NCBI RefSeq assembly: GCF_000331105.1
Contig: NC_020054.1
Span: 6,461,815-6,525,814, forward strand
From: Fibrella aestuarina BUZ 2
GTDB taxonomy: Bacteria; Bacteroidota; Bacteroidia; Cytophagales; Spirosomataceae
Direction of reading: 5' to 3'
DNA length: 64,000 nucleotides
Below are positions 1-64,000 of the stretch, piece by piece. The stretch's first letter is position 1; the number at the start of each line of letters is the position of its first letter. The notes under the pieces were generated by a model. The model was given only the letters and a program-made list of their open reading frames with translations, was not told the origin of the DNA and made no database searches. A program made the position numbers and the translations under genes.

Positions 1-531
1 CTGGCTACTCAGGATGCCGCCCAGCAGCAGCGCCGTGTCAATGGTCGACAGTTCGACCTGTTTGAAGCGCTCGCCGGTTTTCATGTCCAGGAAATGGTAG
101 AAGAACCCTTTGTAACCCGCCACGCCGGTGGGCTTGTCAGACTGGGGCGCCTGGGCAAAAAAACGGAGCGTCTGCCGGGTACGTTCGGCGGCCTGCTCCC
201 GGGTAACGTACCCACGCTCGATACCAACCAAATAGGACGTGAGGCCAAAACCTACGGCGGCAATGCTGGAGAAAGCCGTTCTTGGTGCGCGGTCGGGAAT
301 CAGGCCATTGGCCGGGTTGGCCGTTTCCCAGAAATACCGAAAGGTGTCGCGCTGCAAACTATCCAGAAAGGCGTTGTCGCTGGCAGAAAACCTTGTTGGC
401 GGTTTAGTCGTCGACAAGTGGGAAGTCGGAATGGCGATGTCGGCCGTAGCGGATTTTCCTGCGTTGAACTGATGACTCAGTGTAAGCAGCAGGGTGACCG
501 GCAGGAGCAGTTTTGAAGCGTATTGTATCAC
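1..531 (-). CDS. Glucoamylase-family protein (Glycoamylase/GH144-like), 3' end beyond the window
   Basis: About 177 codons of the N-terminal part are present; the rest lies left of base 1. No ATG fits. The frame opens after a TAG and the first good start is GTG at 531, followed by a signal peptide (VIQYASKLLLPVTLLLTL). The mature part carries DTFRYFWETANPANGLIPDR, then VGFGLTSYLVGIERGYV and GYKGFFYHFLDMKTGERF, the hallmark opening of the Glycoamylase-like family (PF10091). That family includes the GH144 endo-beta-1,2-glucanases of Bacteroidota. It lies downstream of susC and susD on the same strand, so it is probably the exported enzyme of this locus. Substrate is inferred: a beta-glucan, possibly beta-1,2-linked. 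The catalytic residues are outside the window. Confidence 0.85.
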   Translation of the reverse strand, partial: MIQYASKLLLPVTLLLTLSHQFNAGKSATADIAIPTSHLSTTKPPTRFSASDNAFLDSLQRDTFRYFWETANPANGLIPDRAPRTAFSSIAAVGFGLTSYLVGIERGYVTREQAAERTRQTLRFFAQAPQSDKPTGVAGYKGFFYHFLDMKTGERFKQVELSTIDTALLLGGILSSQ

Positions 532-550
532 TGTTTTTCGTAACGAATAA

Positions 551-597
551 GCCGATGGTACTGGCTACGTCGAGCAGGCGTAGCCAGTGCCATCGGC
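551..597. terminator. Strong hairpin between susD and the glucoamylase-family gene
   Basis: Two 19-base arms (551-569 and 579-597) pair with a single G-U type mismatch around a 9-base loop. It sits just after the susD stop on the minus strand and just before the next gene. There is no clear U-tract, so it may attenuate or protect the susCD transcript rather than fully terminate it. Confidence 0.6.
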
Positions 598-605
598 AGG
601 CTGAG

Positions 606-8305: not shown

Positions 8306-9943
8306 ATGAACCACCTCGCTACCGCCGATTACGCGGTTTTCCTGACCTACTTTGTCCTTGTCGTTGGTTACGGCTACTGGATTTACCGCTCGAAGCAGTC
8401 GGGCGAAACCAATACCAAAGATTTTTTTCTGGCCGAAGGGTCACTGACGTGGTGGGCCATTGGCGCTTCGCTCATTGCCTCCAACATCTCAGCCGAGCAC
8501 TTCATCGGCATGGCCGGGTCGGGTTTCGCGATGGGGCTGGCCATTTCGTCGTATGAATGGATTGCGGCGGCGACGCTGGTAATCGTGGCGGCGTTTTTTA
8601 TTCCCATCTACCTCAAAAATAACATCTCGACCATGCCCCAGTTTCTGGCGCAGCGGTATTCCGACACCGTCAGCACCATTCTGGCCATTTTCTGGCTAGT
8701 GGTCTACGTGCTTGTCAACCTCACGTCGATTCTGTATCTGGGGGCTATCGCCATCGAGTCGCTGGCGGGGATCTCGTTTACTACCTGCACCATCGGGCTG
8801 GCCATTTTTGCCATTTTTATTACCCTGGGCGGCATGAACGTCATTGGCTATACCGATGTGATCCAGGTGGTGGTGCTCATCTTTGGCGGGCTGGTGGTCA
8901 CGTACCTGGCGCTGCAACTGGTGGCCGACAAATCGGGCGTCGAGGGCGTCTGGAACGGGCTGGCCACCCTCCGCACCCGCGCCGACGACCATTTCCATAT
9001 GTTCTTCGCCGAAGGGCATCCGCATTACAACGCCCTGCCGGGTATGTCGCTGGTGTTGGGCGGGATGTGGATCAACAATCTCTATTACTGGGGCTGTAAC
9101 CAGTACATCGTGCAACGGGCGCTGGGTGCCGATCTGCCCACGGCCCGAAACGGTATTCTGTTCGCGGCGTTCCTGAAGCTGCTCATCCCGCTGATCGTGG
9201 TCATTCCCGGCATCGCGGCCTTCGTCCTGTATCAGGAGGGCACCTTCGCCGCCGCCATGACCGATGCCAACGGCAACGTCAAACCCGACCATGCGTATCC
9301 GGTGCTGATGAACCTGCTGCCTACGGGCATGAAAGGGTTGGCCTTCGCCGCGCTCACCGCCGCCGTGGTGGCCTCGCTGGCAGGCAAGTGCAACAGCATT
9401 TCCACCATTTTCACGCTCGACATCTACCGGAAGTTCGTTGACAAAGACGCGTCAGAGCAGAAGCTGGTGCGGGTAGGGCGCTGGGCTGTGGTGGTCTCCT
9501 TCGTTGTGGCCATCCTCATCGCGCCCATGCTGCGGTCGTTCGATCAGGTATATCAGTACATCCAGGAATACACCAATTTTCTCACCCCCGGCGTGTTTGC
9601 CATTTTTGCGCTGGGCTTTTTCTGGAAACGCGCCACCAACCGTGCCGCCCTCACGGTCGCCATCCTGACGATCCCGCTCTCGATTCTATTCAAATTCTGG
9701 CCAGCCATCAGCGAATTGGTTGGCGAGCGGGCCGCCGAGATTCCCTTTCTTCACCGCACTACCTGGGTTTTCTGCATCGATATGGTGCTGATGGTCGTGG
9801 TATCGCTCACCGATCCGACTAGCGAGGGCAACCCCAAAGGACTGGCTATCGACAAAGCCATGTTTCGGGTATCGCGGTCGTTTCTGGCCGGATCGGCGGC
9901 AATCGCGGTGGTGCTTATTACCTTATATACCTTGTTCTGGTAG
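8306..9943 (+). CDS. Sodium:solute symporter (SSS/SGLT family)
   Basis: Inner-membrane Na+-driven symporter of 545 residues with about 14 hydrophobic segments. The family signature in the first helices is clear (DFFLAEGSLTWWAIGASL, then SNISAEHFIGMAGSGF), resembling the vibrio sugar transporter vSGLT. NYFW-type gating residues are suggested by NNLYYWGCNQYIVQRAL in the middle. It follows the sensor regulator by 99 bases on the same strand and is probably the inner-membrane uptake step for the mono- or disaccharide released by the locus. The substrate is an inference from context. Its stop is 8 bases from that of the convergent flavin oxidoreductase gene. Confidence 0.92.
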   Translation: MNHLATADYAVFLTYFVLVVGYGYWIYRSKQSGETNTKDFFLAEGSLTWWAIGASLIASNISAEHFIGMAGSGFAMGLAISSYEWIAAATLVIVAAFFIPIYLKNNISTMPQFLAQRYSDTVSTILAIFWLVVYVLVNLTSILYLGAIAIESLAGISFTTCTIGLAIFAIFITLGGMNVIGYTDVIQVVVLIFGGLVVTYLALQLVADKSGVEGVWNGLATLRTRADDHFHMFFAEGHPHYNALPGMSLVLGGMWINNLYYWGCNQYIVQRALGADLPTARNGILFAAFLKLLIPLIVVIPGIAAFVLYQEGTFAAAMTDANGNVKPDHAYPVLMNLLPTGMKGLAFAALTAAVVASLAGKCNSISTIFTLDIYRKFVDKDASEQKLVRVGRWAVVVSFVVAILIAPMLRSFDQVYQYIQEYTNFLTPGVFAIFALGFFWKRATNRAALTVAILTIPLSILFKFWPAISELVGERAAEIPFLHRTTWVFCIDMVLMVVVSLTDPTSEGNPKGLAIDKAMFRVSRSFLAGSAAIAVVLITLYTLFW

Positions 9944-9951
9944 CAACGTAC

Positions 9952-10977
9952 CTAGGCTGCTACGGCGGCCCCGGCCGTTTCGCGAGCCAGCGCGTCACGT
10001 ACCTGAGCCGTCAGTTCAAAGGAACGAAGGCGGGCCGTGTGGTCAAAAATCTGGGCGGTTGTGATCAGTTCGTCGGGGCGAAGCTGGTCGATAAACCGGG
10101 CCAGCCCCTGCTGCACCGTGTCGGGCGAACCAACCATTGCATACCGCAACGCATGGCTGGCTCCCGCCTGATCGGCCGCAAACTGAAGCAGATCGGGGCG
10201 ATCGACGGGCGGGGGCAACATACCGGGCGTACCACGCCGCAGGTTGATGAATTGCTGCTGCACCGACGTAAACAGGCGTTGCGCTTCGGCGTCGGTATCA
10301 GCCACGACCACGTTGGCCGCCAACATGACATAAGGCTTATCCAGCGATTCTGACGGGACAAACTGCGTCCGGTACACGTGCAGGGCCTGCAACAGAGCGT
10401 CGGGGGCAAAGTGAGACGCAAAGGCGAAGGGTAAGCCGAGCATGGCGGCCAGCTGCGCGCCAAACAGGCTGGAGCCCAGTATCCAGATGGGTACGTCGAG
10501 GCCCGCGCCCGGTACAGCCTGCACCGCCTGCCCCGGCTCGGTCGGCTGGAAATAATCGCGCAGTTCGACTACATCCTGCGGGAACGTATCGGGGCCCGTG
10601 AGGTTGCGGCGCATGGCCCGGGCCGTTACCTGATCGGAACCCGGCGCGCGGCCTACGCCCAGGTCGATCCGGCCGGGGTAGAGCGATGCCAGCGTGCCAA
10701 ACTGCTCGGCAATGACCAGCGGCGAATGGTTAGGCAACATAATGCCCCCTGACCCAACGCGGATGGTTTGGGTGCCCCCCGCGATGTAGCCAATCCCCAC
10801 CGACGTAGCCGCGCTGGCCACGCCCGTCATGTTATGGTGTTCGGCCAGCCAGTAGCGGTTATACCCCCAGCGTTCGGCGTGTTGAGCCAGATCAAGCGCA
10901 TTATGCAGCGCCTGCCGGGGCGTACTGCCTTCGGTAACCGGCACCAGATCTAAAATTGAGAAAGGAATCTTTTTCAT
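9952..10977 (-). CDS. LLM-class flavin-dependent oxidoreductase (luciferase-like, MsnO8 type)
   Basis: FMN/F420-type luciferase-like monooxygenase of 341 residues, a single TIM barrel. The start [19 protein letters not shown] and the motif [10 protein letters not shown] are typical of the MsnO8/YhbW group, as are [18 protein letters not shown] and [15 protein letters not shown]. No luxB-like partner is present, so this is the stand-alone bacterial type whose natural substrate is usually unknown. It is monocistronic, convergent with the symporter, and followed upstream by an unrelated gene. Confidence 0.9.
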
Positions 10978-11102
10978 GGCGTTGGAAAGCCACGTACCCG
11001 GTCAGGTTGTGTGCCGGATGGCTTTCGTGTACAACACAAACGGTCCGGAAATCATTACCCGAACCTGTTAACCGAAAGGCAACCGGCACGACTTAACGCG
11101 CT

Positions 11103-12059
11103 TCATTGACCAGTAGCCAGGGCATTGATCGCTGCCGGAACATCTGGCTCACCCTTGAAAAACACGCCGCGTTTACCCTGTGTCAGCGCCCAGCGGTGTA
11201 GCCACGAGATGCCGCCATTCCGAACGTAGTCGTCCTGCGACTGGTAGGCGGGGTCCTGGAGCGCCTCATGGAGTGAGACGAATTGATACCCTTCGGCCGT
11301 CAGGCGCGCTAGTATATCGCCCAGATACTGCGAATTGATGGTATTGGCGTGCGTTAACAGAACATGTGCTATGGAGCGCCTGAATAGTGAGTCGGCCTGC
11401 GCCTCGTAGTAATGAACACAAGCCAGCATGTAATCGACGTATTGCTTACCGACCGACGAGGCCAGCGCACTGTCTTTCCGAAGCAACGCGACATCGTAGG
11501 CAGCGGAGAACAGATAATCGGCATTATCGATAGACACCGGCGCTTCTACATACTGCTGGCTGGCCAGATAGCGAACCAGCGAATCGCGTTTGCTGACCGT
11601 GTTGCCCCGTTGCAAATATGGATGACGAAAGTAACGGAGGCGTCGATTAGCCGCCTGAAGCAACGGACGCAGCAACGTATCGGCGCCGGCAACGTCTTGC
11701 TGGTAGGCAGCGGCCGATAGTGTATTATATCCCAGGTGCGCAAACGTGTGATTGCCTAACTCCATACCGGCTTCCAGCCAGCGCGTCAGCAGGCGCAGCT
11801 GACTGCTGTCAGGCTGTGACTGGCTCATCAGTTTTTCGCCAACGACGAAGCCAATCGCAGGTACGTTGTGTCGTTTCAGCTGTGCCAGCAACCGATCAGT
11901 CAGCGAGTCCTGCCCGGCGACGGTCCGGTAAACCCGTGAAACGGTAGGTAAATCATCAATGCTGATGCACATCCGTTTCTGAGCGCAGGCTGGTATCAAA
12001 CAACCTACTATGAACAACGACGTGAGCAAAAATCGACAGGAGACTACTGTTGTGTGCAT
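11103..12059 (-). CDS. Secreted polysaccharide deacetylase (NodB-like, CE4 type)
   Basis: Metal-dependent deacetylase of about 318 residues that removes acetyl groups from cell-wall or extracellular sugar polymers. The chosen ATG at 12059 gives a proper signal peptide (HTTVVSCRFLLTSLFIVGCL). The longer frame to 12101 enters a terminator hairpin. Motif 1 is SIDDLP (metal/base Asp pair), motif 2 is GNHTFAHLGYN (His-x3-His metal ligands), and a later region has RYFRHPYLQRGN, the expected R/P loop. The C-terminal catalytic His (VLLTHANTINSQYL) is also recognisable. It is related to the secreted Bacteroidota forms; the substrate is not predictable. Confidence 0.88.
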   Translation of the reverse strand: MHTTVVSCRFLLTSLFIVGCLIPACAQKRMCISIDDLPTVSRVYRTVAGQDSLTDRLLAQLKRHNVPAIGFVVGEKLMSQSQPDSSQLRLLTRWLEAGMELGNHTFAHLGYNTLSAAAYQQDVAGADTLLRPLLQAANRRLRYFRHPYLQRGNTVSKRDSLVRYLASQQYVEAPVSIDNADYLFSAAYDVALLRKDSALASSVGKQYVDYMLACVHYYEAQADSLFRRSIAHVLLTHANTINSQYLGDILARLTAEGYQFVSLHEALQDPAYQSQDDYVRNGGISWLHRWALTQGKRGVFFKGEPDVPAAINALATGQ

Positions 12060-12082
12060 AAGCCGTTCTAGTAACAATATAT

Positions 12083-12124
12083 GTTGGCCTTCGGAAAGCA
12101 CACCAGCGCCTTCCGAAGGCCAAC
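12083..12124. terminator. Perfect 14-bp stem-loop after the amine oxidase gene
   Basis: Arms 12083-12096 and 12111-12124 are exact complements (GTTGGCCTTCGGAA and its reverse complement) around a 14-base loop. It lies 18 bases beyond the amine oxidase stop at 12143 and separates that gene from the deacetylase gene downstream. A terminator is the simplest reading, although there is no long U-tract. Confidence 0.65.
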
Positions 12125-12142
12125 AAAGAACGTACCTACTGG

Positions 12143-13756
12143 CTAAGCGATGACCCCTATCGCTTCAAGAATCTTTTCGGCGGCATCCCGACCGGTTTCG
12201 GCCCCGCCATTCATGTATCCCTGATAATCGGCGCTGCAATGCTCACCCGCAAAAAATAAGTTGTTGACCGATTCGCCTTCAGCACCGCCAAAGCTGGTCT
12301 TTTGCCCGACGGTGTAGCAGGCGTAGCTTCCGAGCGCAAACGGGCTGCTTGGCCAGTGAAAACGCTCGGCTCGACCATTGTAGCGAGCCGACGCACCGGG
12401 GAAAATCTGGTTTAACTTAGGCAGATAATATTGCGCTTGCAGTGCCGCGCTGCCTACGCCAAGCAACGTACCCGTAACGCCGCCGGTATAGACCGTAAAG
12501 CCACCCGAGCTACCTGCCTGCAGTTGGCTATTATCCCACCCCGACTGTAGGCCATTGTCGGAGAATACGTACCCAGAATAACTCTGACTACGCCACGGAC
12601 GGTTGGAGAAACCCAACAGCAGTTTGGCGTTGGTGCCGTAACCCAATTCCCAGATAGCTCGCCGTTTGCGAGTGGGCAAACTTACGTTCAGTTGCACCTG
12701 CCGCAATTTTGTAAACGGAAGCGTCAACAGCACATAATCGGCGCGGACGGTAGCACATCCATCAAAAACCAAGTCAAGTTTGGTACCATATGTAGTCACC
12801 GCCCTCAACACGGCGCCAGTCTTAATCGAGTCCTGATACAAACCCGCCAGGCGATCAACGATCTGCTGATTACCGCCTTCAATTTTGTAGCGTTCGTCGC
12901 TGTCGCCAAATACCTCAAACTGCCCCCCACTGGTGTCGGTCGAGATAAGCGTGAGCAGGTTGAGTGCCGTTTGAACATCACAGGAAAGACCAAATTCCGT
13001 TTCGTAGGCCACCGTCAGCAACGACCGGATAAGTCCGGGAGCGCCAATAATGAGGAGGTATTCGCTAATCGACAGCCAGTCAAAGCGCAAGCCGGGGCCA
13101 CTCGTCGTGGTGTAATCAACGCTGTCGGGTAACTGATCGATGTCAGCCTGTATACGGCTGGCAATGGGCCGAAACGCCGACACGATCTGAGCCAGTGAGT
13201 AGAGCCGTCCGTTGAAGAAGTAAGCGTCTTTGATCAGCGCGGTTTCTGAAGGGGCCTGCGTATCGAGTAAGGGCAAGCCAAATTCCTGGGCCAACTGCAG
13301 CATATCCGCATGGCCACTGTCGATAAATTCACCGCCAAGTTCGGTGGCCAGGCCAGTCGCCAGCAGGTTTTTGGCCGTGCGAATCCGGCCGCCAATCACG
13401 TTGGCTCCTTCGTAGATGGTGAAATTACCGAACCCCCTTTTAGCAAGGGTATGGGCTGCGTGCAAGCCAGCAATACCAGCCCCGATAATCGCTACGCTGG
13501 GGCCACTGGTACTCAGGCGAGCGTTGCGCGCGGGCTGGACGGGCGCAAGGTCATCGGAGCGGCAACTACTCAGTGCGGCTAATCCGCCGGCAGCTAGTGC
13601 CATCTGGCCTGACGAACGCAAAAACGCCCGGCGCGACTGTTGTTCGATCAATTGGCCAACTAACTCATCGGCGGGTATCTGGGTACGTTCTGCGTCAATG
13701 GCGAGCCGATAAGCCTGACGCAACAAAGTCATCAAGGGGGTCTTCGATGTAAACAT
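12143..13756 (-). CDS. Flavin monoamine oxidase family protein with twin-arginine signal
   Basis: FAD-dependent amine oxidase of about 537 residues. The chosen ATG is at 13756. A longer frame begins at 13822 but runs through an inverted repeat. Residues near 40-70 form a Tat-like signal (SRRAFLRSSGQMALAAGGLA) ending at a Cys, so the folded enzyme is probably exported and may be lipid-anchored. The FAD-binding fingerprint VAIIGAGIAGLHAAHTLAKR is followed by an acidic strand end (FTIYEGANVIGGRIRT). The C-terminal flavin loop NLFFAGEHCSADYQGYMNGG is conserved. The substrate amine is unknown. It stands alone between hairpins. Confidence 0.88.
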   Translation of the reverse strand: MFTSKTPLMTLLRQAYRLAIDAERTQIPADELVGQLIEQQSRRAFLRSSGQMALAAGGLAALSSCRSDDLAPVQPARNARLSTSGPSVAIIGAGIAGLHAAHTLAKRGFGNFTIYEGANVIGGRIRTAKNLLATGLATELGGEFIDSGHADMLQLAQEFGLPLLDTQAPSETALIKDAYFFNGRLYSLAQIVSAFRPIASRIQADIDQLPDSVDYTTTSGPGLRFDWLSISEYLLIIGAPGLIRSLLTVAYETEFGLSCDVQTALNLLTLISTDTSGGQFEVFGDSDERYKIEGGNQQIVDRLAGLYQDSIKTGAVLRAVTTYGTKLDLVFDGCATVRADYVLLTLPFTKLRQVQLNVSLPTRKRRAIWELGYGTNAKLLLGFSNRPWRSQSYSGYVFSDNGLQSGWDNSQLQAGSSGGFTVYTGGVTGTLLGVGSAALQAQYYLPKLNQIFPGASARYNGRAERFHWPSSPFALGSYACYTVGQKTSFGGAEGESVNNLFFAGEHCSADYQGYMNGGAETGRDAAEKILEAIGVIA

Positions 13757-13801
13757 TATTCGCAAATTATTAAGTATAATTACCCGACAATTTGCGAATA
13801 A
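13756..13801 (-). promoter_or_regulatory. Inverted repeat in the leader of the amine oxidase gene
   Basis: Two perfectly complementary 13-base arms (13756-13768 and 13789-13801; TTATTCGCAAATT and its complement) flank 20 AT-rich bases. The promoter-distal arm touches the ATG at 13756. In DNA this could be an operator; in RNA it would lock the start codon in a hairpin. Confidence 0.55.
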
Positions 13802-13968
13802 ATAACTAGTTTTAGGTAGCACCGAGTGACATAATTCGTACTTTTCAAGGCTGGATGACCCGTTGACCTGCCTTACAGCTGACTAGTACTGCCTGGCTTG
13901 CGGGCACCAACCGGCGGCAATTATCGTTTACTCGCTGTAAGATTCTGACAGCCAAACAAAAAATGGCG

Positions 13969-14490: not shown

Positions 14491-14510
14491 GTTATACAGA
14501 AAAGTCGGCA

Positions 14511-14629
14511 GGCTGCGCTGTCATTAGGCTTCGCCATCATTGATGGTTATTCATGGTAAAAAACAATTAATGACTACCAATGACGCCGCAGGCAAATGAC
14601 TACCAATGACAATCAATGACGGCGCAGCC
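14511..14629. repeat. Complex inverted and direct repeat upstream of ftsY
   Basis: Outer arms 14511-14525 and 14615-14629 pair over 15 bases with one mismatch. Inside are two exact copies of AATGACTACCAATGAC (14569-14584 and 14595-14610) and further TGATGG/TCAATGAC fragments. The stretch ATGACGCCG-C-AGGC at 14580-14593 recurs with one change at 31489-31502, so this is a dispersed family. No gene is visible here. Confidence 0.6.
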
Positions 14630-14655
14630 CACTGACTATCAATAGACACTACACG

Positions 14656-15627
14656 ATGGCCTTTTTTGGATTATTTGGCAAAGAGAAAAAAGAATCGCTC
14701 GACAAGGGACTGGAAAAAACCAAAGACAGTTTTTTCTCCAAGCTGGGCCGGGCAGTCGTTGGCAAAGCAACCGTCGACGAAGAGGTGCTCGACGAACTCG
14801 AGAGCGTCCTGATCTCGTCGGACGTGGGTGTCGAAACCACCGTCAAGATCATTAACCGGATTGAAGCCCGCGTAGCCCGGGACAAGTACATGGGTACGAG
14901 CGAGTTGGACAGCATTCTGCGCGAAGAAATTGCCGGGCTGCTATCCGACAACAAACCTACCGGCAGCAACGTACCCAACGATGACTTTTCGCTCCCCGCC
15001 GATAAGAAACCTTACGTGATTATGGTCGTTGGGGTGAACGGGGTCGGCAAGACCACCACCATCGGCAAGCTGGCGGCGCAGTTTCACAAACGGGGTAAAC
15101 AGGTCGTGCTGGGCGCGGGTGATACCTTCCGGGCGGCGGCGGTCGATCAGCTCAAGCTCTGGGGCGACCGCGTGGGCGTACCGGTCATCTCGCACGGCAT
15201 GAACACAGACCCCTCGGCCGTAGCTTTCGACGCCGTGAAAAAAGGGACCGAAATGGGCGCTGACGTGGTCATTATCGACACCGCCGGCCGGTTACACACC
15301 AAAGTGAACCTGATGAACGAGTTGTCGAAGATCAAGCGGGTGATGCAGAAATTCATTCCTGACGCCCCCCACGAAGTATTGCTCGTGCTCGACGGATCGA
15401 CCGGACAGAATGCCTTTATTCAAGCCACCGAGTTTACGAAAGTGACCGAGGTCACGGCCCTGGCCATCACCAAACTCGACGGCACGGCCAAAGGTGGGGT
15501 CGTTATCGGCATTTCCGATCAATTCCAGATTCCCGTCAAGTACATCGGCGTGGGCGAAAAAATCGAAGACCTGCAAGCCTTCGACAAGATGGAGTTCGTC
15601 GATTCGTTCTTTAAGAAAGTGTCGTAA
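14656..15627 (+). CDS. ftsY: Signal recognition particle receptor FtsY
   Basis: SRP-receptor GTPase that docks ribosome-SRP complexes at the inner membrane for co-translational insertion. It has 323 residues, short and without the long acidic A domain, which is normal for Bacteroidota. The NG domain is complete: N-domain helices to about 95, G1 [10 protein letters not shown] at 126-135, [11 protein letters not shown] at 156-166, G3 DTAGR at 208-212, G4 TKLD at 272-275 followed by GTAKGG. A Phe-rich amphipathic N-terminus (MAFFGLFG) probably serves as membrane anchor. Its position after rpmG and DUF4295 is conserved in the phylum. Confidence 0.97.
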
Positions 15628-19750: not shown

Positions 19751-21256
19751 ATGACTACAGATCGCGATAAAGTACGCCTCATTTTTGGGCTGAAACTGAA
19801 ACAGTTGCGCGCCGAACGGGGCTTTTCCACCTACGACCTAGCCGACCGCACCGGCCTGTCGCCGTCGTACCTCAACGAGATTGAGAAGGGGAAAAAGTAC
19901 CCGAAAACGGAGAAGATTTTTGCGCTGGCCAAAGCGCTCGACACCGACTACGATGCTCTAGTGTCGTTGAAGGTCAACAAGCAACTGGAGCCGGTCGCCG
20001 AACTACTTAACTCAAACGCACTGAGCCAGTTGCCATTTGAGTTGTTTGGCATCGAACCGGAATATTTTCTGGAAGTGATGGCCAATGCACCCGCTAAGCT
20101 GAGCGCCTTCATCAACACCATCATCGAGATTGGCCGGAACTACGATTTGCGTGTCGAGCAGTTTTTTCTGTCGGTGCTGCGAACGTACCAGGCCATGCAC
20201 GACACTTATTTCGACGATCTGGAACAACAGGCCGACGCCTTTCTGGCAAGCCATGACGTACCCAATCGTGAGCCAGCCGGCGACGTACCCACGTACCTGA
20301 CGCAGGTCCTCACCGGGGAGTACAGCCTTAGCGTTGTTCCTTACGACGCCCATACGTACCCCGACCTGATGTCGCTTCGCTCCGTTTTTTTACCCGAAAA
20401 GAACACGCTACTCGTCAACAGCCAATTATCGACCGAGCAGACGGCCTTCACGCTGGGCCGCGAAATCGGGTATAACCAGTTGAAACTGGTCAATCGGCCG
20501 CTGGAGTCATCAATGCTCCGGGCGTCATCATTCGATGAAGTGCTGAACAACTTCCGGGCGTCGTACTTCGCGCGGGCCATCCTGATTCCCCGCCAAACGC
20601 TACACCCGCTGCTGACCGACTTGTTTCGCCAACGTACCTGGCAGCCTGATCAATTACTGCGCATGATGGCGTCGTTCACCGTAACGCCGGAAATGTTTTT
20701 GCTGCGCATGATGAATCTGCTGGCGCACGATTTTGGCCTGAACGACCTGTTTTTCCTCCGATTCGACAATCCGGGCGTTAACCATTCAGCCGATCAGCCC
20801 CGGTTCGTGTTGTCGAAAGAGCTACACCTGAGCCGCCTGCACACCCCACACGGTGTGGCGCGCGACGAGCACTACTGCCGCCGACAGGTCGCCCTGACGA
20901 TGCTGACCGACCTGCGGGACCAGCAAACGCAGGGTCAATGGAACGGGCAGCCGATCTGCCGGGCGCAAATCACCACCTATGCCAGCGACGGGTCGGCGTA
21001 TTTTGTGCTGTCGATCGCCAACTCATCACCGCCGACTACCACCAACAGCAGCATCAACATCGGCCTGCCCCTCACCGATACACTGCGCAATACACTGGCT
21101 TTTCTCGACGACGCAACCATTCCCCGCACCGACGTCGGCGAAACCTGCGAACGCTGCCCCATCACCGACTGCGCCGTCCGGGCTGCCCCGCCGACTGTCT
21201 TACTAAAAGAACAGCAAACGCAGGCGATTCAGGCGCAGATTGAAGCGCTGCGTTGA
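19751..21256 (+). CDS. RamB/ScfR-type transcriptional regulator (XRE HTH, degenerate IrrE-like domain, Cys-rich tail)
   Basis: A 501-residue regulator. A GTG at 19739 lies inside repeat B; the ATG at 19751 is better. Residues 10-68 form an XRE-type HTH (LAERGFSTYDLADRTGLSPS style; note SPSYLNEIEKGKKYPK). The middle resembles the ImmA/IrrE domain, but the HExxH motif is replaced by GREIGY, so no protease activity is expected. The tail CERCPITDCAVRAAPP matches the Cys-rich end of the short-chain fatty acyl regulators (ScfR, RamB). Known members control acetate, propionate and pck genes. Divergence from pckA-fbp and the palindrome between them make gluconeogenesis control the likely job. This last step is inference. 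Confidence 0.85.
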   Translation: MTTDRDKVRLIFGLKLKQLRAERGFSTYDLADRTGLSPSYLNEIEKGKKYPKTEKIFALAKALDTDYDALVSLKVNKQLEPVAELLNSNALSQLPFELFGIEPEYFLEVMANAPAKLSAFINTIIEIGRNYDLRVEQFFLSVLRTYQAMHDTYFDDLEQQADAFLASHDVPNREPAGDVPTYLTQVLTGEYSLSVVPYDAHTYPDLMSLRSVFLPEKNTLLVNSQLSTEQTAFTLGREIGYNQLKLVNRPLESSMLRASSFDEVLNNFRASYFARAILIPRQTLHPLLTDLFRQRTWQPDQLLRMMASFTVTPEMFLLRMMNLLAHDFGLNDLFFLRFDNPGVNHSADQPRFVLSKELHLSRLHTPHGVARDEHYCRRQVALTMLTDLRDQQTQGQWNGQPICRAQITTYASDGSAYFVLSIANSSPPTTTNSSINIGLPLTDTLRNTLAFLDDATIPRTDVGETCERCPITDCAVRAAPPTVLLKEQQTQAIQAQIEALR

Positions 21257-34642: not shown

Positions 34643-37210
34643 ATGACCAACCGCTACATCAACCTGATTCTCTGTCTGTTCACGTCCCTGATCGCCTCGG
34701 CGCAGGTTGCCGACAGCTACTACCTCCCCCAGACCGTTCAGTACAACGCCGCCATCCCCACACCCCGCCAACACCTGGGGTATCAGGTGGGCGAATGGCA
34801 TGTTTCGCACGACCAGATCGTGGGCTACATGAAAAAGCTCGACGAGGTATCTGACCGGATCACCCTCGTGGAATACGGACGTACCTACGAAAGCCGCCCG
34901 CTACTGCTGCTCACGATCACGTCGCCCCAGAACCAGCAACAGATCGACCGGCTTAAAGCTGAACACGTTCAGTTGGCCGACCCCGCCCGCTCGACGGGCC
35001 TCGATGTGAGCAAAATGCCCGCCGTAGTCTGGATGGGCTACACCGTCCACGGCAACGAACCCAGCGGCAACAATTCGGCCCTGCTGGCGGCGTACTACCT
35101 GGCGGCGGCACAGGGGCCCGCCATCGACTCACTGCTCAACGAAAGCATCATCCTGCTCGACCCGTGCATCAATCCCGATGGGGCCAACCGCTTCGCCAAC
35201 TGGGTCAACGCGCACAAGAGCCAGAACCTGGTCAGCGATCCGGCGAGCCGGGAGTTCAACGAGGTGTGGCCCAACGGACGGACAAACCACTACTGGTTCG
35301 ACCTCAACCGCGATTACCTCTACCAGCAGCACCCCGAAAGCCAGAGCCGAATGGTGAAGTTTCACGAGTGGAAACCGAACCTGCTCACCGACCACCACGA
35401 GATGGGCACCAACAGCACGTTTTTCTTTCAGCCGGGCGTACCCAGCCGCACCCACCCGCTGACGCCCCGCCGCAACGTGGAGCTGACCAACCGATTCGGG
35501 CAGTTTCAGGCCGAAGGCATGCAGCGGATTGGCTCGTTGTTCTACACGCAGGAAAACTTCGACGACTTCTACTATGGCAAAGGCTCGACGTACCCCGACG
35601 TGCACGGCTGCGTCGGGATTCTGTTTGAGCAGGCGAGTTCGCGGGGGCACGCGCAGGAAGGCAGCAACGGGCTGCTCACCTTCCCGTTCACCATCCGCAA
35701 TCAGTTTACGGCCATGCTCTCGACACTCCGGGCGGCGCGGGCCATGCGCGTCGACCTGCTCAATTTCCAGCGCGATCACTACCGCGAAGCTAACGCCGAC
35801 GACGTGCGGGCCTATGTGTTTGGCAACAGCAACGACCGGGTACGTACCTGGGAAATGGTGAACATTCTGCGGCGGAATCAGGTAGCCGTGTATGAACTGA
35901 ACCGCGACGAAACCCTCGACGGACGTACCTACACGCGCGGTAATGCGTACCTCGTGCCGCTGGCCCAGCCGCAACACCGCCTCATCCGCAGCATGTTCGA
36001 AAAGCGCACGACCTTCCAGGACAGCCTCTTCTACGACATCTCGGCCTGGTCGATGCCCCATTGTTTCAACGTACCGTATTCGGAAGCCCGGACTGCGCTG
36101 ACGCCCGGTGCTAAAGTCGAGGCCAACCCCTTCCCGAAAGGGCGGGTTATTAGCGGACCCGTCGGTACCGATTACGCCTACCTCTTCGCGTGGGACAGCT
36201 ATTTCGCGCCCCGCGCCGCCAGCGAACTGATGCGCAAAGGGTACCGGCTCAAAAGCGCATCGCAGCCATTCAGTGCGCAGGTTTACAGTCAGTCGCAGCC
36301 GATGCGGTTTGATTACGGAACGGTGCAGATTCTGGCCAATGGGCAAGACCCCGTTCAGCTTCGCAACCTGCTGGCAACGCTGGCCGAACGGGATGGCGTC
36401 GATTTTTACGCCGTCTCGTCGGGGATGACGCCCGACGGCATTGATCTGGGCAGCGACAATTTCAAAAATATGCGGCAACCTCGACCGTTGCTGGTGGTGG
36501 GTTCGGGCGTGAGCAACCTCGACGCGGGCGAAGTGTGGCACCTACTCGACACCCGCGTCAACGTTCCCTTATCGACCGTCGATATGGCGCAGATGAGCCG
36601 CGTCAACCTCGACCGCTACAATGTGCTGGTGCTTGTGAGCGGCGACTACAACGGCCTGCCGACGGAGAAAATCAGGCAGTGGGTGCAAAACGGCGGTACG
36701 CTGGTGGCCATGACCGACGCCGTGCGCTGGGCGAGCGAAAAAGGCCTGTCGACCGCCCGGCTCAAGCGCATCCCGACCGATACGACCGGCACCCGCGCTT
36801 ATGCCGATTACGAACGATACAGCGGCTCACGCGTGATTGGCGGGGCCATTTTCCAGACCCGTGCTGACCTCACGCACCCGCTGCTCTATGGCTACAAAAC
36901 CAATTTGCTCTCGGTGTTCAAAGACAATACCGTGTTTCTGGAAAAAAGCCGCGACCCCTTCGCCACGCCACTCTATTACACGCCAACGCCACTGGTGAGT
37001 GGGTACGTGGCGTCGGCCAACGAACGGCTTTTCCGCGACACGCCCGCCATTGTCGTGAACACGCTGGGCAGCGGGCGAGTCATCGCCATGGCCGACAACC
37101 CGAATTTCCGGGCCTTCTGGTACGGCACCAACAAGCTCTTTCTGAATGCCCTCTTTTTCGGTAATCAGATTGGCGCGTTTGCCCGTGGCAGTTCTGACGA
37201 AAACGATTAA
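34643..37210 (+). CDS. Secreted M14 zinc carboxypeptidase family protein
   Basis: An 855-residue protein with a signal peptide ending LIASAQ. The ATG at 34643 is preferred over an upstream one at 34592 that has no signal sequence. The M14 domain occupies about 40-380: zinc ligands His136 and Glu139 in GYTVHGNEPSG, the third ligand in the LTDHHEMGTN region, and DLNRDYLYQQHPESQSR. The C-terminal 400 residues include a glutamine-amidotransferase-like fold (LLVVGSGVSNLDAGEVWHLL), as is usual for this long Bacteroidota subfamily. The substrate peptide is unknown. A strong terminator follows. Confidence 0.9.
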   Translation: MTNRYINLILCLFTSLIASAQVADSYYLPQTVQYNAAIPTPRQHLGYQVGEWHVSHDQIVGYMKKLDEVSDRITLVEYGRTYESRPLLLLTITSPQNQQQIDRLKAEHVQLADPARSTGLDVSKMPAVVWMGYTVHGNEPSGNNSALLAAYYLAAAQGPAIDSLLNESIILLDPCINPDGANRFANWVNAHKSQNLVSDPASREFNEVWPNGRTNHYWFDLNRDYLYQQHPESQSRMVKFHEWKPNLLTDHHEMGTNSTFFFQPGVPSRTHPLTPRRNVELTNRFGQFQAEGMQRIGSLFYTQENFDDFYYGKGSTYPDVHGCVGILFEQASSRGHAQEGSNGLLTFPFTIRNQFTAMLSTLRAARAMRVDLLNFQRDHYREANADDVRAYVFGNSNDRVRTWEMVNILRRNQVAVYELNRDETLDGRTYTRGNAYLVPLAQPQHRLIRSMFEKRTTFQDSLFYDISAWSMPHCFNVPYSEARTALTPGAKVEANPFPKGRVISGPVGTDYAYLFAWDSYFAPRAASELMRKGYRLKSASQPFSAQVYSQSQPMRFDYGTVQILANGQDPVQLRNLLATLAERDGVDFYAVSSGMTPDGIDLGSDNFKNMRQPRPLLVVGSGVSNLDAGEVWHLLDTRVNVPLSTVDMAQMSRVNLDRYNVLVLVSGDYNGLPTEKIRQWVQNGGTLVAMTDAVRWASEKGLSTARLKRIPTDTTGTRAYADYERYSGSRVIGGAIFQTRADLTHPLLYGYKTNLLSVFKDNTVFLEKSRDPFATPLYYTPTPLVSGYVASANERLFRDTPAIVVNTLGSGRVIAMADNPNFRAFWYGTNKLFLNALFFGNQIGAFARGSSDEND

Positions 37211-42249: not shown

Positions 42250-42377
42250 GTTGGCTGGGTACGTTGCCTAACAAGAGGAGCCAGCATGAGCAAACAATGT
42301 AAAAAAAGAACATTTTTGAGCCGTCAATTACGTATGCGTACCGGTACCTATATACCTACACATACGTGTGGTAGCGC

Positions 42378-46581: not shown

Positions 46582-48504
46582 ATGATGATGCTACCTCTGT
46601 GCCGCCTCTGGTTGGCCCTTACCTGGGGGGCCCTCACTTGTGTAGCCGCCCCCAGTCTGTTGATGGCTCAGGCGCCGCTACCCGAAACCTATCAGTGGCT
46701 GCCCCTTGGCGACGTAAAGCCGAGAGGTTGGCTCCAGGCCCAGATGAAGCAGGACTTGCAGGGCTTCGTGGGAAACCTGGACCGGCTGGTGCCCGACCTG
46801 ATCGTGAAGGATGATATCTACGGCAAAAACCGCCTTACCACAAAGGTGAAAGCCAAAGACGTGGGCGCCATCGCCGAAAACGGCGACTGGAACGTGCAGT
46901 TCCTATGGTGGAACAGCGAAACCCAATCGAACTGGCGCGACGGATTTGTGCGGCAGGCGTTCCTGTCGGGCGATCTGAAGGCCCAACAGCGCGCCAAATC
47001 CTACATTACGGGTATACTGGCCACGCAGGATGCGGACGGTTACCTGGGCGTGTATGCCCCCGATCTGCGCTATAGGCTCACGGGCGAAAACGGCGAACTC
47101 TGGGCCAAAGCCACCCTGTTTCGGGTGCTGTTAGGCTATTACGAACTAACCAAAGACCCCCGGGTCTGGCAGGCGGTGGTGAAGGCCGTCGACAACGTGA
47201 TGGTCAATTACCCGATCAATCAGTCGTCGCCGTTCAGGGCCGAAAAGCCATTCGCGGGACTGAGCCACGGCCTCGTTTTCACCGATGTGCTCGACCGGCT
47301 CTACCAGCTCACCAACGATCGGAAATACCTCGACTACGCGCTGTTTCTGTACACCGATTATTCAAAAAACGCCGTCTCGGAAACCGATATCCAGTTGCCC
47401 AATATTCTGGACGACAACTACCGAATGCACGGGCACGGCGTACACAGCTACGAGCACCTTCGCCCGCTGACGGTGGCCTATTGGGCGTCGGGCGATGCGC
47501 AACTGAAGCAGGCGCTGGATCGATACCAGCAACGAATCGAGCAACTGACGACCCCCACCGGCGGCCCCATCGGTGACGAATGGATCACGCAGGCGTCGGC
47601 CGACGCCACCCAAACCGGCTACGAGTATTGCTCATTGCACGAGTTGCTGCATAGTTATTCGATGCTCTTGCAGAAAACGGGTCGCCCCGCCTACGCCGAT
47701 CAGATCGAGCGGCTGTTTTTTAACGCGGCCCAGGGCGCTCGCCACCCCACCCACAGCAGCATTGCTTACCTGAAAACCGACAATTCGTACGCGATGACCG
47801 GGACTCGAAACGGCGGAGGCGACCCCAAACAAACCCGCTACAAGTATTCGCCCGCCCACCAGGATGCTGCCGTCTGTTGCGTACCCAATGCGGGGCGTAT
47901 TGCCGCCTATTATGTGCAGGCCATGTGGATGCGCCAAGCCGACGGGCTGGTGGCCAACCTGCTTGGGCCCTGCCAACTAGCCACGCAGCTTGGCGACAAT
48001 GCTGTATCCATCCAGGAACAAACCGACTATCCTAACCAGACTAGTTTTGTGTTCACCATACAGGCGCAACGGCCCTTCCGGCTCAAAATCAGGCAACCCA
48101 CCTGGGCCACAGCCGCCACCTGTAGTCACCCCTACGACCGCGAACCGGGCTACCTCGCCCTGCCGGTCAAGGCGGGTAAAACCGTGATCCGGCTGGCCTT
48201 CAACGCCGCCGTGATGGCGCATCCGTTTGCCAACAGCGAAACCTATTTCAGCTACGGCCCTTTGGTCTACGCTCACCCCCTACCGGCCCAAGAAGCCGTT
48301 GTGAAGACCTTCCCGGTGGCGGGGTTCGCCGATCGGACGTACCGCCCCGTCGAACTGGCTACGTATCGGTACGTACCCAGCAGCCCGGCAACGTACCTGA
48401 ACTCGACCATCACCATCCGGGCAAAAAATGAAAAAACGCAGGTGATCGAGCCGATCCGGCTGGTACCCGTAGCGGGGACGATTCTGCGGCAGGTTACATT
48501 CTAA
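46582..48504 (+). CDS. GH127-family beta-L-arabinofuranosidase-like protein
   Basis: A 640-residue exported protein (signal ending LLMAQ). The (alpha/alpha)6 barrel of GH127 (old DUF1680) begins at PLGDVKPRGWLQAQM. The zinc/catalytic set of the family is present: Glu348 and Cys350 in YEYCSLHE, and Cys432-Cys433 in AAVCCVPNAGR, matching the Glu-x-Cys and Cys-Cys of the characterised HypBA1 enzyme. Release of beta-L-arabinofuranose is the inferred reaction; the family also covers other specificities (GH146 relatives). It is last in the AraC-linked operon. The next gene is convergent. Confidence 0.9.
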   Translation: MMMLPLCRLWLALTWGALTCVAAPSLLMAQAPLPETYQWLPLGDVKPRGWLQAQMKQDLQGFVGNLDRLVPDLIVKDDIYGKNRLTTKVKAKDVGAIAENGDWNVQFLWWNSETQSNWRDGFVRQAFLSGDLKAQQRAKSYITGILATQDADGYLGVYAPDLRYRLTGENGELWAKATLFRVLLGYYELTKDPRVWQAVVKAVDNVMVNYPINQSSPFRAEKPFAGLSHGLVFTDVLDRLYQLTNDRKYLDYALFLYTDYSKNAVSETDIQLPNILDDNYRMHGHGVHSYEHLRPLTVAYWASGDAQLKQALDRYQQRIEQLTTPTGGPIGDEWITQASADATQTGYEYCSLHELLHSYSMLLQKTGRPAYADQIERLFFNAAQGARHPTHSSIAYLKTDNSYAMTGTRNGGGDPKQTRYKYSPAHQDAAVCCVPNAGRIAAYYVQAMWMRQADGLVANLLGPCQLATQLGDNAVSIQEQTDYPNQTSFVFTIQAQRPFRLKIRQPTWATAATCSHPYDREPGYLALPVKAGKTVIRLAFNAAVMAHPFANSETYFSYGPLVYAHPLPAQEAVVKTFPVAGFADRTYRPVELATYRYVPSSPATYLNSTITIRAKNEKTQVIEPIRLVPVAGTILRQVTF

Positions 48505-60953: not shown

Positions 60954-60964
60954 CCGATCGTCTC

Positions 60965-61255: not shown

Positions 61256-61263
61256 GGCTTAGG

Positions 61264-63396
61264 CTACATTCCATTCACCCAAACCGGTACACCCGATAGG
61301 GCGGCGTTGCCCGTCAGCGAATCGGCAAAGGCTTCGTCGGTCAGGTCGTTGACGCTGGCCCCGGCATGTTGCTGCGCCACGTCGAGCCGGGTGCCAGTGC
61401 GGTGGTGGCCGTAGCCGTGCGGCATGCACACTACGCCGGGCATAATATCGGGCGTGATGTCGGCGGGTATATCGACTTCGCCCACGCGGGAACGTACCCG
61501 AACCGATTGGCCCGTTACGATGCCCAACCGGGCCGCGTCGGTAGGGTGCAACAGCAACGTACAGCGGTTTCGCCCTTTCATCAGCACGCGGGCGTTGTGC
61601 ATCCACGAGTTGTTGTCACGCAGATGCCGGCGGCTGATCAGGAGCAACGAATCGGGGGCAGGTGTGCCCTCTTGCAGAGCCGCATGGGCGCGGGGCAAGT
61701 CGGCCAGAAACAGGGCGGGAGCCACGTCGATGCGGCCATTCGGCGTGAACAGGCGGCCGGGTAACTGCGACTGCAACGGCCCCAGATCGACGCCATGTGG
61801 GTACTCGCGCAGGTACGTTAGACTCAGTCCCTGCCTGGCGTAAGGCCCATAGCGCAACCCCTGATCGATGATCTTTTCCGGGTTTTGTAGTGTCCACTCC
61901 GCGCGCGACGTACCCAGTAAGCGCAACCGTAGGTGCTCGAAAATTTCCCAGTCATACAGCGTGCCATCGGGTTTGGGCACCATCGGCTCTGAGTAGCGGG
62001 CGGTATTGCGGATCGCCAGCATGTGGAAGGTCAGGTCGTAATTGGCCGTTTCGAGGCCCGTCAGCGGCGGTAAGATGTAGTGAGCATGGCGCGTGGTTTC
62101 GTTCAGGTAGATATCAATCGACACCATGAAGTCGAGTTGCGTCAGCGCTGTCTCCAGCCGCCGTCCGTTGGGCGTCGACAGCACCGGATTCCCGCAACTC
62201 GTAACCAGCGCCCGCAGTTGTCCGTCGCCCGGCGTTTCGATTTCCTCGGCTAAGCAAGCCACTGGCAGTTCGCCCATAAACTCCGGCTTCTGGCTCACCC
62301 GACTTTGAAAGCGGTTGTACTTGTTGTAAACGGGCCGGGGCGAACCGGGGCGGGTGGCTAGCACGTCGATGGCGGGTGAGGTAAACAGCATCCCGCCCGG
62401 CTCGTCGAGGTGGCCCGTCAGCAGGTTAAGTACGTTGATGAGCCACAGACAAAGCCCACCAAATTCCTGCGTTGAAACGCCCACCCGCCCGTAGAGAGCC
62501 GCACGGGGCGTCTGCGCCAGTTCATGCGCCAACGCCCGAATCACGTCGGGCGAAATACCCGTTATGGCCATTACCGATTCAGGCGTAAATGGGGCTACGG
62601 CCTCCTGCAACGTACCCAGCCCGTCGGTCAGCGCGGTCAGGCGACCGGGGTTAACCAGTTGTTCGGCAAACAGCGTTTGCGTCATGGCCAAGAGCAAAAA
62701 CACGTCGGTGCCGGGTCGGATAAAGTGATGCTCGTCGGCCCGGTGGGCTGTTTCGGTACGGCGGGGATCGATAACGACGACGCGGCCGCCCCGCTGCTGA
62801 ATAGCCCGCAGGCGTGTGCTCACGTCCGGGGCCGTCATGATGCTACCGTTCGACGCGATGGGGTTTCCACCGATGATGAGCCAGAAATCGGTGTGGTCGA
62901 GGTCGGGAACGGGCATTAGCAGCGGGTGGCCAAACAACTGCCAGGCCGCAAAATGATGCGGAAACTGATCGACCGACGAAGCCGAAAACACGGCGCGGGC
63001 GCCCAGGGCTTTCACCATGCCCGGCATGGCCAGAAACGACCCCGAATTGTGCACCGTTGGGTTACCGGCATAGACACCGATGGCGCTCGGCCCGTGCTGG
63101 GTACGTACCTGATGCAGCCGGTCGGCGACTTCGTCCAGGGCCTGCTCCCACCCGATTTCCTGCCAGTCGGTGCCTACGCGTTTCAGCGGTTTTCGCAGCC
63201 GGTTTGGGTCTTCATACACATCCCGCAACGCCACCGCTTTCGGGCAAATATGACCCCGGCTGAAGGGATCATCGGGGTCCCCCGCGATACTGACGACCTG
63301 CCCGTTTCGGTGCGTCACGATCAGGCCACAGATGGCCTCGCAAAGGTTACAGGCCCGGTAGTAGGTTCGCAGGGATTGATCAGTTGATGAAGACAT
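61264..63396 (-). CDS. Molybdopterin-dependent oxidoreductase (BisC/formate dehydrogenase-like), cytosolic
   Basis: A 710-residue molybdenum/tungsten enzyme. The N-terminal [4Fe-4S] site is Cys16, Cys19, Cys23 and Cys51 (RACNLCEAIC, ICPKAVALRDVYEDPNRLR). The cofactor-binding Mo-bis-MGD domains follow (DFWLIIGGNPIASNGSI, GGRVVVIDPRRTETAHRA, LVTSCGNPVLSTPNGRRLE), and the C-terminal domain (VRVRSRVGEVDIPADITPDI, CMPHGYGHHR). No signal peptide or partner subunits are present. Single-gene forms of this type occur in many Bacteroidota with unknown substrates. It is convergent with the cbpA-cbpM operon. Confidence 0.92.
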   Translation of the reverse strand: MSSSTDQSLRTYYRACNLCEAICGLIVTHRNGQVVSIAGDPDDPFSRGHICPKAVALRDVYEDPNRLRKPLKRVGTDWQEIGWEQALDEVADRLHQVRTQHGPSAIGVYAGNPTVHNSGSFLAMPGMVKALGARAVFSASSVDQFPHHFAAWQLFGHPLLMPVPDLDHTDFWLIIGGNPIASNGSIMTAPDVSTRLRAIQQRGGRVVVIDPRRTETAHRADEHHFIRPGTDVFLLLAMTQTLFAEQLVNPGRLTALTDGLGTLQEAVAPFTPESVMAITGISPDVIRALAHELAQTPRAALYGRVGVSTQEFGGLCLWLINVLNLLTGHLDEPGGMLFTSPAIDVLATRPGSPRPVYNKYNRFQSRVSQKPEFMGELPVACLAEEIETPGDGQLRALVTSCGNPVLSTPNGRRLETALTQLDFMVSIDIYLNETTRHAHYILPPLTGLETANYDLTFHMLAIRNTARYSEPMVPKPDGTLYDWEIFEHLRLRLLGTSRAEWTLQNPEKIIDQGLRYGPYARQGLSLTYLREYPHGVDLGPLQSQLPGRLFTPNGRIDVAPALFLADLPRAHAALQEGTPAPDSLLLISRRHLRDNNSWMHNARVLMKGRNRCTLLLHPTDAARLGIVTGQSVRVRSRVGEVDIPADITPDIMPGVVCMPHGYGHHRTGTRLDVAQQHAGASVNDLTDEAFADSLTGNAALSGVPVWVNGM

Positions 63397-63605
63397 AAAT
63401 TAGGGCTGGTGGCGCTAGTAGTTTGTTAAGAATAAGGAAAAGTAAAGAAAGTTTATAGCTAAACATAGATAGCCTGTAAACAGCTATTTTTCAGTAGCAC
63501 TAATTCTAAAACAAAAAGGGCGATTCGGCAGATACGTAAGTAGCACCTGATAGTAAACGCTGTTGACTATATGCACAGCTACAGGCAGGCGCGCCTATTT
63601 ACGTT

Positions 63606-64000
63606 ATGAAAAAATACGGGTTACTTCTTCTCATTTGGGGAATCAGCCTGATGGTTACCGATGTCGTTCTTGCGCAAAAATCGCCCGATTCGTTAGCCAC
63701 AAGGGCTTATTTGACCGATTGCATTCAGTACGCGCTCGCCAATCAACCTATCGTTCGTCAGTCGCTCATTGATCAGGAAATTGCCGACCGCAACATTCGC
63801 GTGGCCCAATCAGGTTGGCTACCACAGGTCAATGCTGGCTACAATTTATTTCACTACCTCAAACTGCCCGTCACGCTCATCCCCGACGCGACCACCGGCG
63901 AGCGACGGCCCGTTACCCTGGGGGCGCGCAACACATCCACGGCTTCCTTTTCGCTGTCGCAAAACCTGCTCAGCCGCGATCTGCTACTGGCCAACCAGAC
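63606..64000 (+). CDS. TolC-family outer-membrane efflux protein, 5' part only
   Basis: The first 131 codons are in the window. A signal peptide (YGLLLLIWGISLMVTDVVLA, then Q) is followed by a typical OEP start: AYLTDCIQYALANQPIVRQS, IADRNIRVAQSGWLPQVNAG, then a beta-strand region and SFSLSQNLLSRDLL. The alternation of coiled-coil and strand is that of TolC-like channels. Partner RND or MFP genes would lie to the right. The 209-base gap upstream (63397-63605) is AT-rich, contains no gene, and shows no clear -7 element. Confidence 0.88.
   Translation, partial: MKKYGLLLLIWGISLMVTDVVLAQKSPDSLATRAYLTDCIQYALANQPIVRQSLIDQEIADRNIRVAQSGWLPQVNAGYNLFHYLKLPVTLIPDATTGERRPVTLGARNTSTASFSLSQNLLSRDLLLANQ

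Follow-up and report, generated by a model that had tools for sequence, protein, structure and literature searches.

Occurrence of the word in the window and along the genome

The 64,000-nt stretch of Fibrella aestuarina BUZ 2 that was analysed here (the window, G000:C2:6461815-6525814) carries many copies of the short word ACGTACC and its complement GGTACGT, within genes as well as between them (Table 1). There are 50 copies on the forward and 31 on the reverse strand, and 72 of these 81 (46 and 26, respectively) continue with a pyrimidine and hence read ACGTACCY. The hand tally of the original prediction, about 80 copies with Y mostly at the eighth position, agrees with this exact count, and all nine coordinates quoted with it were correct, including both GGGTACGTACCT composites. 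At Markov orders 1, 2 and 3, no 7-mer of the window ranks higher than ACGTACC. At order 5, where the model already takes up most of the signal because the 6-mers within ACGTACC are raised as well, it lies outside the top 7-mer list, but an excess over the Markov expectation is retained even there (81/62.9 observed/expected, with 39/22.3 for ACGTACCC and 33/17.7 for ACGTACCT). Across 340 kb of samples from this genome, the order-5 values are 387/299.3 for ACGTACC, 154/79.8 for ACGTACCT, 165/91.0 for ACGTACCC, 124/41.4 for ACGTACCTG and 108/33.2 for ACGTACCCA.

The genome (G000) comprises 6,937,263 bases in contigs of 6,775,444 and 161,819 bases, the smaller of which we take to be a plasmid. It contains 7,044 copies of ACGTACCY (3,472 and 3,572 on the two strands), about one per kb, and 220 (117 and 103) of the reversed word that served as control in whole-genome counts. 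A 404-kb set from this genome, which includes the window and in which genes were called by a simple open reading frame (ORF) and codon score made for this analysis, holds 391 copies. In its coding DNA, 342 are found versus 50.8 after a within-gene shuffle of synonymous codons (6.7-fold), with 71, 71 and 53 in the sense frames (24.3, 8.8 and 1.6 shuffled) and 36, 33 and 78 in the antisense frames (8.8, 1.6 and 5.8 shuffled), and the intergenic DNA has 48 versus 4.1 expected at order 2. The reversed word shows no such excess (7 in coding DNA, 9.6 shuffled). The copies had been predicted to fall in all frames and outside genes, and it is indeed the excess itself that extends to all six frame and orientation classes and to intergenic DNA, rather than to one coding frame. 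Within the DNA sampled, this contradicts a codon- or dipeptide-usage artefact, which would agree with the raised numbers in coding DNA; moreover, the word is absent from the same core regions of two sister species, although their proteins there are about 87% identical.

Polar guide words, such as the FtsK-orienting polar sequences (KOPS) and the architecture imparting sequences (AIMS), are likewise octamers in many copies, but they are defined by a strand bias that becomes stronger towards the terminus (PMC5993296). In 38 chromosome samples (804 kb), ACGTACCY occurs 438 times on the forward and 401 times on the reverse strand, and the best division of the chromosome into two arcs agrees with the orientation of 54.7% of the copies, whereas permutations give 54.1% on average and 55.8% at the 95th percentile. 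The second contig is equally dense, with 98 copies in 100 kb sampled (51 forward, 47 reverse). These samples thus show no polarity, which contradicts the strand-polar guide. Chromosome organisation had been among the roles first considered; in the form of a polar word, it is not supported. We therefore give practically no chance to the pair of explanations by polar guidance or coding usage.

The genus set comprises three genomes that are rich in the word (G000, G001 and G003) and two that are poor (G002 and G004). Over 71 samples of the rich genomes, the median density is 1.00 per kb. In the three species, the gaps come close to a Poisson distribution (coefficients of variation 1.06, 0.95 and 1.11), without sign of a regular spacing, and close neighbours are commoner than expected in G000. 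The five samples of lowest density are L170, L014, L162, L012 and L013, and L170, L162, L013 and L014 together have only 26 copies in 80 kb. All four annotated of these five stretches have phage-type or mobile family matches among the selected proteins, namely a tail match in L170, a phage-type helicase and an integrase in L162, a head maturation protease and a weak portal match in L013, and C5 and N6 DNA methyltransferases, an extra DNA polymerase III beta clamp and one unnamed PHROG in L014. Phage-type genes thus lie in both L013 and L014, which are the pair at 4.50-4.52 Mb and 5.00-5.02 Mb of G000:C2.

Shape of the word

Comparative samples amounted to 904 kb of G000, 280 kb each of G001 and G003, and 180 kb each of G002, G004 and G027, the latter belonging to another genus of the same family. 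With the samples pooled for G000, G001 and G003, ACGTACC occurs 898 times versus 186 expected at order 2, and the best form of the motif is (A preferred)-ACGTACC-Y-R. On the 3' side, the excess is 24-fold with TG, 19-fold with CA and 14-fold with TA, then 5.9 with CG, 4.9 with CC and at most 2.1 with the others, and at 91% of 937 sites in G000, positions 8-9 form a pyrimidine-purine step. On the 5' side, A is raised 8.1-fold versus 2.7- to 3.9-fold for the other bases, and further flanks show weak preferences only (up to 0.12 bits). Relative to base composition, ACGTACCYR is enriched 28.8-fold in G000 without mismatch and 1.24-fold with one. The core is thus sharp and the flanks are graded. 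Under a balance of mutation against selection or drive, an enrichment of 6.7- to 28.8-fold would correspond to a scaled advantage of about 1.9-3.4 for full matches, and to none for near misses.

Published values for other words, converted from (obs-exp)/exp, are 184 for exact and 3.0 for one-mismatch forms of the uptake signal sequence (USS) of H. influenzae, 393 and 5.8 for the DNA uptake sequence (DUS) of N. gonorrhoeae, 1,130 and 11.4 for the 10-mer of highly iterated palindrome 1 (HIP1) in Synechocystis, and 6.7 and 2.5 for Chi of E. coli (PMC1939737, Tables 1 and 6). USS and DUS thus differ from the Fibrella word, whose one-mismatch forms stand at 0.80-1.24, and it is only in G027, where AAGTACCY is enriched 37.0-fold when exact and 3.19-fold with one mismatch, that we found a tail of near misses.

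The sharpness of the core bears on two other explanations. The word could in principle halt and redirect a nuclease of the RecBCD/AddAB type and so guard host DNA during break repair. E. coli Chi (GCTGGTGG) is likewise an asymmetric octamer that is recognised exactly; the 7-8 bases of the Fibrella word and its use in both orientations would suit such a role, and Chi-type words differ between species. The leading-strand bias of E. coli Chi is, however, not seen for this word, though not every Chi need show one. Moreover, E. coli Chi reaches only 6.7-fold and has a one-mismatch tail of 2.5 (PMC1939737), as compared to 15.9- to 28.8-fold and 0.88-1.24 here, and no comparable replacement word is seen in the 180 kb sampled from each poor sister, where a shorter one would escape. 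A Chi-like role therefore appears improbable. The other explanation takes the word as the site of a nucleoid-associated or other non-polar chromosome-binding protein, for which the similar density of the word on the chromosome and the second contig speaks, as well as the prevalent pyrimidine-purine step, which could be interpreted as a bend. Binding sites usually tolerate mismatches, however, and one-mismatch sites are not enriched here; the word has been lost in two sister species, and there is no candidate protein. We regard this role as quite improbable.

Rich and poor species of Fibrella

Per genome, there are 7,044, 6,261 and 7,322 copies of ACGTACCY in G000, G001 and G003 versus 1,261 and 1,190 in G002 and G004. 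In three syntenic core regions (rpoB, murG and nuoL, 60 kb per genome), the rich species have 57, 44 and 52 copies, respectively, as compared to 9 in G002 and 1 in G004. A tree of 19 proteins (9,755 columns, rooted with G027) reads ((G000,(G001,G003)100)67,(G002,G004)100), and on this tree one gain or one loss would suffice to explain the distribution, the placement of G000 being weakly supported (67).

The original prediction had named conservation at orthologous sites as a point to be examined. After removal of sites with gaps or a flank identity below 0.6 (27 of 57 for G000 versus G001), copies are kept at 15 of 30 sites from G000 to G001, at 14 of 31 from G000 to G003 and at 31 of 38 from G001 to G003, well above in-phase window controls (0.15, 0.15 and 0.25) and anagram-word controls (0.20, 0.21 and 0.31; p 2e-4, 3e-3 and 3e-10). 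As conservation exceeds both types of controls, the loss of the word must be opposed, and not merely its gain raised. In the poor sisters, conservation is at control level or below: G002 keeps 6 of 26, 4 of 24 and 3 of 26 sites from G000, G001 and G003, and G004 keeps 1 of 26, 0 of 24 and 0 of 24 (in-phase controls 0.10-0.17, anagram controls 0.19-0.24; these six comparisons are mutually dependent). A 3' flank of CA, TG or TA is found at 74% of the 19 sampled G004 sites, 27% in G002 and 80-81% in the rich species. As 18 of these 19 G004 copies are outside the core regions (samples L101 and L133-L137, as compared to L182, L188 and L194), transfer from rich relatives may be their source.

Patchy presence in sister species would also agree with a word at which a DNA modification enzyme acts and which modification-linked repair or protection generates and maintains, as has been proposed for the HIPs of cyanobacteria. 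This is the main rival, and the all-or-none core, as for an enzyme site, and the density agree with it. HIP1 and the alternate HIPs of cyanobacteria also occur about once per kb, in coding DNA too, and are sharp; some relatives have alternate words, and matching methyltransferases were reported for them by Elhai 2015 (PMC4390886). Our word-finding procedure, when applied to a Trichormus plasmid as positive control, returned HIP1 as top word. HIPs, however, are palindromes, whereas ACGTACCY is asymmetric, its gaps are near Poisson without regular spacing, and no matching enzyme appeared in the two methyltransferase families that we searched: PF01555 has no match in the rich G001, and PF07669 occurs in each of the 9 genomes searched, whether rich or poor, with only weak matches in G000. 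Neither family tracks the word by its presence (the search covered these two families only). On balance, we consider an enzyme site of this kind rather unlikely.

Related words in other lineages

Related words were found in further members of the order. G027 has 13,622 copies of AAGTACCY in 6.9 Mb, the highest number of 200 family genomes, and 558 of the reversed word. In 180 kb of this genome, AAGTACCY is raised 12.6-fold, AGGTACCY 6.7-fold and AACTACCY 6.7-fold, the density of AAGTACCY is 4.1 per kb in intergenic versus 1.84 per kb in coding DNA, and the gaps are clustered (coefficient of variation 1.27). AAGTACCY is moderately raised in G020 (3,238), G044 (2,435), G018 (2,268) and G007 (1,978), and AAGTACC leads the 7-mers of a 15-kb sample from G020, but not those of 15 kb from G044. 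Pontibacter sp. FD36 (L029, in G412) has 4,064 copies of AGGTATAG in 4.8 Mb and 117 of the reversed word. G383 and G347, which belong to one genus of another family, presumably Pontibacter, were chosen because AGGTATAG is raised there (591 and 435); the top 7-mer is AACTATA in G383 (33 in 15 kb, next to 25 of AAGTATA) and AAGTATA in G347 (27 in 15 kb), and both words are dispersed among dissimilar contexts. The samples of FD36, G383 and G347 are small (15-21 kb each).

Every one of these dialect words matches A-NN-TA-(CC or TA), a frame that was defined after part of the data had been seen, and both families share AG, GG and AC as NN. A ranking of 95 units by the strength of their best dispersed 7-mer had the HIP1 control on top, followed by G383, FD36, G027 and G347, all four of which match A[ACG][CG]TANN (1.2% of 7-mers), as do 3 of the 29 further rows listed. 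The Fibrella pools were excluded from this ranking, as the context diversity of ACGTACC (0.58-0.68) is below the cut-off of 0.70; without the filter, they would score 7.0-9.0 as compared to 15.4 for G027, and in a separate ranking ACGTACC is first in all three. Most sampled genera of the family have no such word.

Several candidates were discarded. AACTATA in G016 (L110) belongs to a tandem array at about 14500-15370 with a period of about 44 bases that contains AACTATAACC, and the top words of G011, L045 and L062 resemble longer or simple repeats; in G011, a 20-kb sample (L108) has about 24 copies of a repeat with AGACAGGGCATG. CCTAGG of Hymenobacter sp. BT559 matches the A-NN-TA frame only loosely; with 25 copies in 21 kb (L027), this palindrome is possibly a HIP-like word of its own. 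In 21 kb of a Hymenobacter metagenome-assembled genome (L067), GGGCCCC/GGGGCCC occurs 43 times versus 11.2 expected.

AAGTACCY is strongly avoided in seven genomes of genus g32 of the same family (G183, G164, G154, G186, G083, G116 and G192), which have 19-90 copies versus 437-566 of the reversed word, unlike their sister species; perhaps a GTAC-type site is restricted there. In G052 and G237 (family f5 of the same order), the AGGTATAG sites are almost all on one strand among the matches listed, and in G052 the ACGTACCY sites likewise, which is possibly an artefact.

Intergenic pairs and single copies in the window

Neighbouring copies 5-100 bases apart that are both intergenic are mostly inverted, with inverted to direct ratios of 21:4 in rich Fibrella and 27:11 in G027; for other close pairs, the ratios are 58:75 and 28:31. 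Inverted intergenic pairs are a trait of DUS and USS. Between convergent genes, the density is 1.32 per kb in rich Fibrella (43 in 32.7 kb) versus 0.97 in coding DNA, and 11.4 per kb in G027 (31 in 2.7 kb) versus 1.64; with fewer samples and stricter gene calls, the convergent-gene values were 1.34-3.11 and, for G027, 12.98. Several copies are inside long hairpins, as judged by eye. The copies in the window are listed in Table 1.

Table 1. ACGTACCY in the window, with composites, close groups and intergenic copies
Feature	Position	Strand	Remark
ACGTACCY, starts	206, 5378, 8900, 9946, 9997, 10992, 12130, 12466, 12567, 14969, 17423, 17978, 19237, 20256, 20283, 20291, 20354, 20632, 23076, 26440, 27464, 27950, 29263	+	exact count
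ACGTACCY, starts (rest of 46)	29433, 30429, 30752, 34879, 35588, 35842, 35923, 37333, 38542, 38579, 43835, 46349, 48371, 48391, 48646, 53747, 57193, 58010, 60293, 61492, 61908, 62610, 63103	+	exact count
ACGTACCY, low ends (26)	177, 857, 3808, 6376, 6553, 10489, 11859, 13681, 17078, 23020, 23307, 23972, 25365, 31611, 32478, 34218, 35838, 37001, 42257, 44178, 49502, 50515, 51748, 56498, 61811, 63099	-	exact count
Composite GGGTACGTACCT	35838..35849	both	two opposite-strand copies sharing 4 bases
Composite GGGTACGTACCT	63099..63110	both	two opposite-strand copies sharing 4 bases
Inverted pair	177..213		RGGTACGT 177-184 (-) and ACGTACCC 206-213 (+)
Direct cluster	20256..20361	+	four copies at 20256, 20283, 20291, 20354
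Two copies	48371..48398	+	at 48371, 48391; extra - core at 48368 has G at position 8, excluded from ACGTACCY
ACGTACCT	9946..9953	+	between ORFs 8306-9943 (+) and 9952-10977 (-), 2 bases inside the end of the latter
ACGTACCC	10992..10999	+	between ORFs 9952-10977 (-) and 11103-12101 (-)
ACGTACCT	12130..12137	+	between ORFs 11103-12101 (-) and 12143-13822 (-)
ACGTACCC (+ strand reads GGGTACGT)	42257..42264	-	between ORFs 40876-42186 (adenosylhomocysteinase) and 42378-43769

Possible recognition and function of the word

What could keep such a word in the genome? The data ask for a reader of the exact word that prefers sequences with a full match to those that differ by one base. It would be active on the chromosome and the second contig alike, be present or absent from one sister species to the next, and use different letters in different lineages. 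We tentatively suggest that a sequence-specific reader of double-stranded DNA recognises ACGTACCYR and that a drive in favour of copies with the word spreads and maintains it, most likely through the recognition of self-DNA in uptake and homologous recombination, as for the DUS. It is a related and equally provisional idea that part of the Cytophagales carries self-recognition words of the type A-NN-TA-(CC or TA), one or few per species and up to about 14,000 copies per genome, which are gained, changed or lost between sisters and would constitute a DNA self-watermark with dialects and an all-or-none receptor or enzyme. The reader would bind the word in incoming or recombining DNA, and alleles with a full match would be taken up or recombined more often. 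Point mutations that complete a word would thereby spread, and those that break it would be replaced. Related readers in other lineages would read A-NN-TA-CC or A-NN-TA-TA, and when a species loses its reader, the words would decay at the neutral rate.

The DUS of Neisseriaceae and the USS of Pasteurellaceae are similar in that thousands of non-palindromic copies, about one per kb, occur on both strands, and in their inverted intergenic pairs. In Neisseriaceae, a biased uptake of self-DNA is combined with homologous recombination, and the dialects share an invariant CTG (PMC3630211); the A-NN-TA words of other lineages are a parallel to this, as the species dialects here would vary around an A..TA core. 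Unlike these systems, the words described here belong to another phylum, are unrelated in sequence and are patchily present within one genus. Of the roles first considered, which ranged from HIP1- and DUS-like to methylation or chromosome organisation, a DUS- or HIP1-like recognition word fits the density of about one per kb, the occurrence on both strands, the frame independence, the conservation, the related words and the inverted pairs. In favour of the uptake reading also speak the sharp core with its graded flanks, the phage-type or mobile genes in four of the five stretches of lowest density, and the competence protein ComEC, which all 8 genomes searched for it encode. The system resembles DUS dialects most, yet we do not file it as an uptake sequence, because near misses are not enriched in Fibrella, and receptor and competence are hypothetical.

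Several observations weigh against DUS-like self-recognition. The 21 one-mismatch variants of ACGTACC total 2,199 versus 2,762 expected at order 2 (0.80; the highest is ACCTACC with 1.26) and reach 1.07 at order 1 (single words 0.43-1.89), and relative to composition ACGTACCY in G000 is enriched 15.9-fold when exact and 0.88-fold with one mismatch. The word has its full density also on the second contig. Conservation in G004 is even lower than its control (p 0.0085-0.017), which the loss of drive alone fails to explain. Among ten named Cytophagales plasmid stretches (50 kb), none has a word as strong as those of G027 and Pontibacter, the weak candidates being CGACTAC in H. swuensis (23/3.3) and ACTACCTG in H. 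DG25B (13/1.5). ComEC is no marker of the word, as the poor G002 and G004 are among the 8 genomes that encode it; no receptor was found in this search, which covered ComEC only. To our knowledge, transformation is not known for these bacteria, and our literature search found none.

In the openly accessible literature that we searched (subscription papers and preprints were outside), there was no description of ACGTACC as a repeated word, and such words have not been described for Bacteroidota in the papers searched. Only a few groups are known to maintain a word in thousands of copies per genome, with USS, DUS, HIP1 and Chi as the examples, and there is still no agreement on what HIP1 does (PMC4390886). 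As one genus contains rich and poor species with core proteins that are about 87% identical, and related words exist in other lineages, the reader should be findable by a comparison of the gene contents of sister species, and it becomes possible to test how such a word is gained, altered and lost. If the uptake reading is true, the word would be evidence for a sequence-selective transformation in Bacteroidota, which would affect the gene flow between species.

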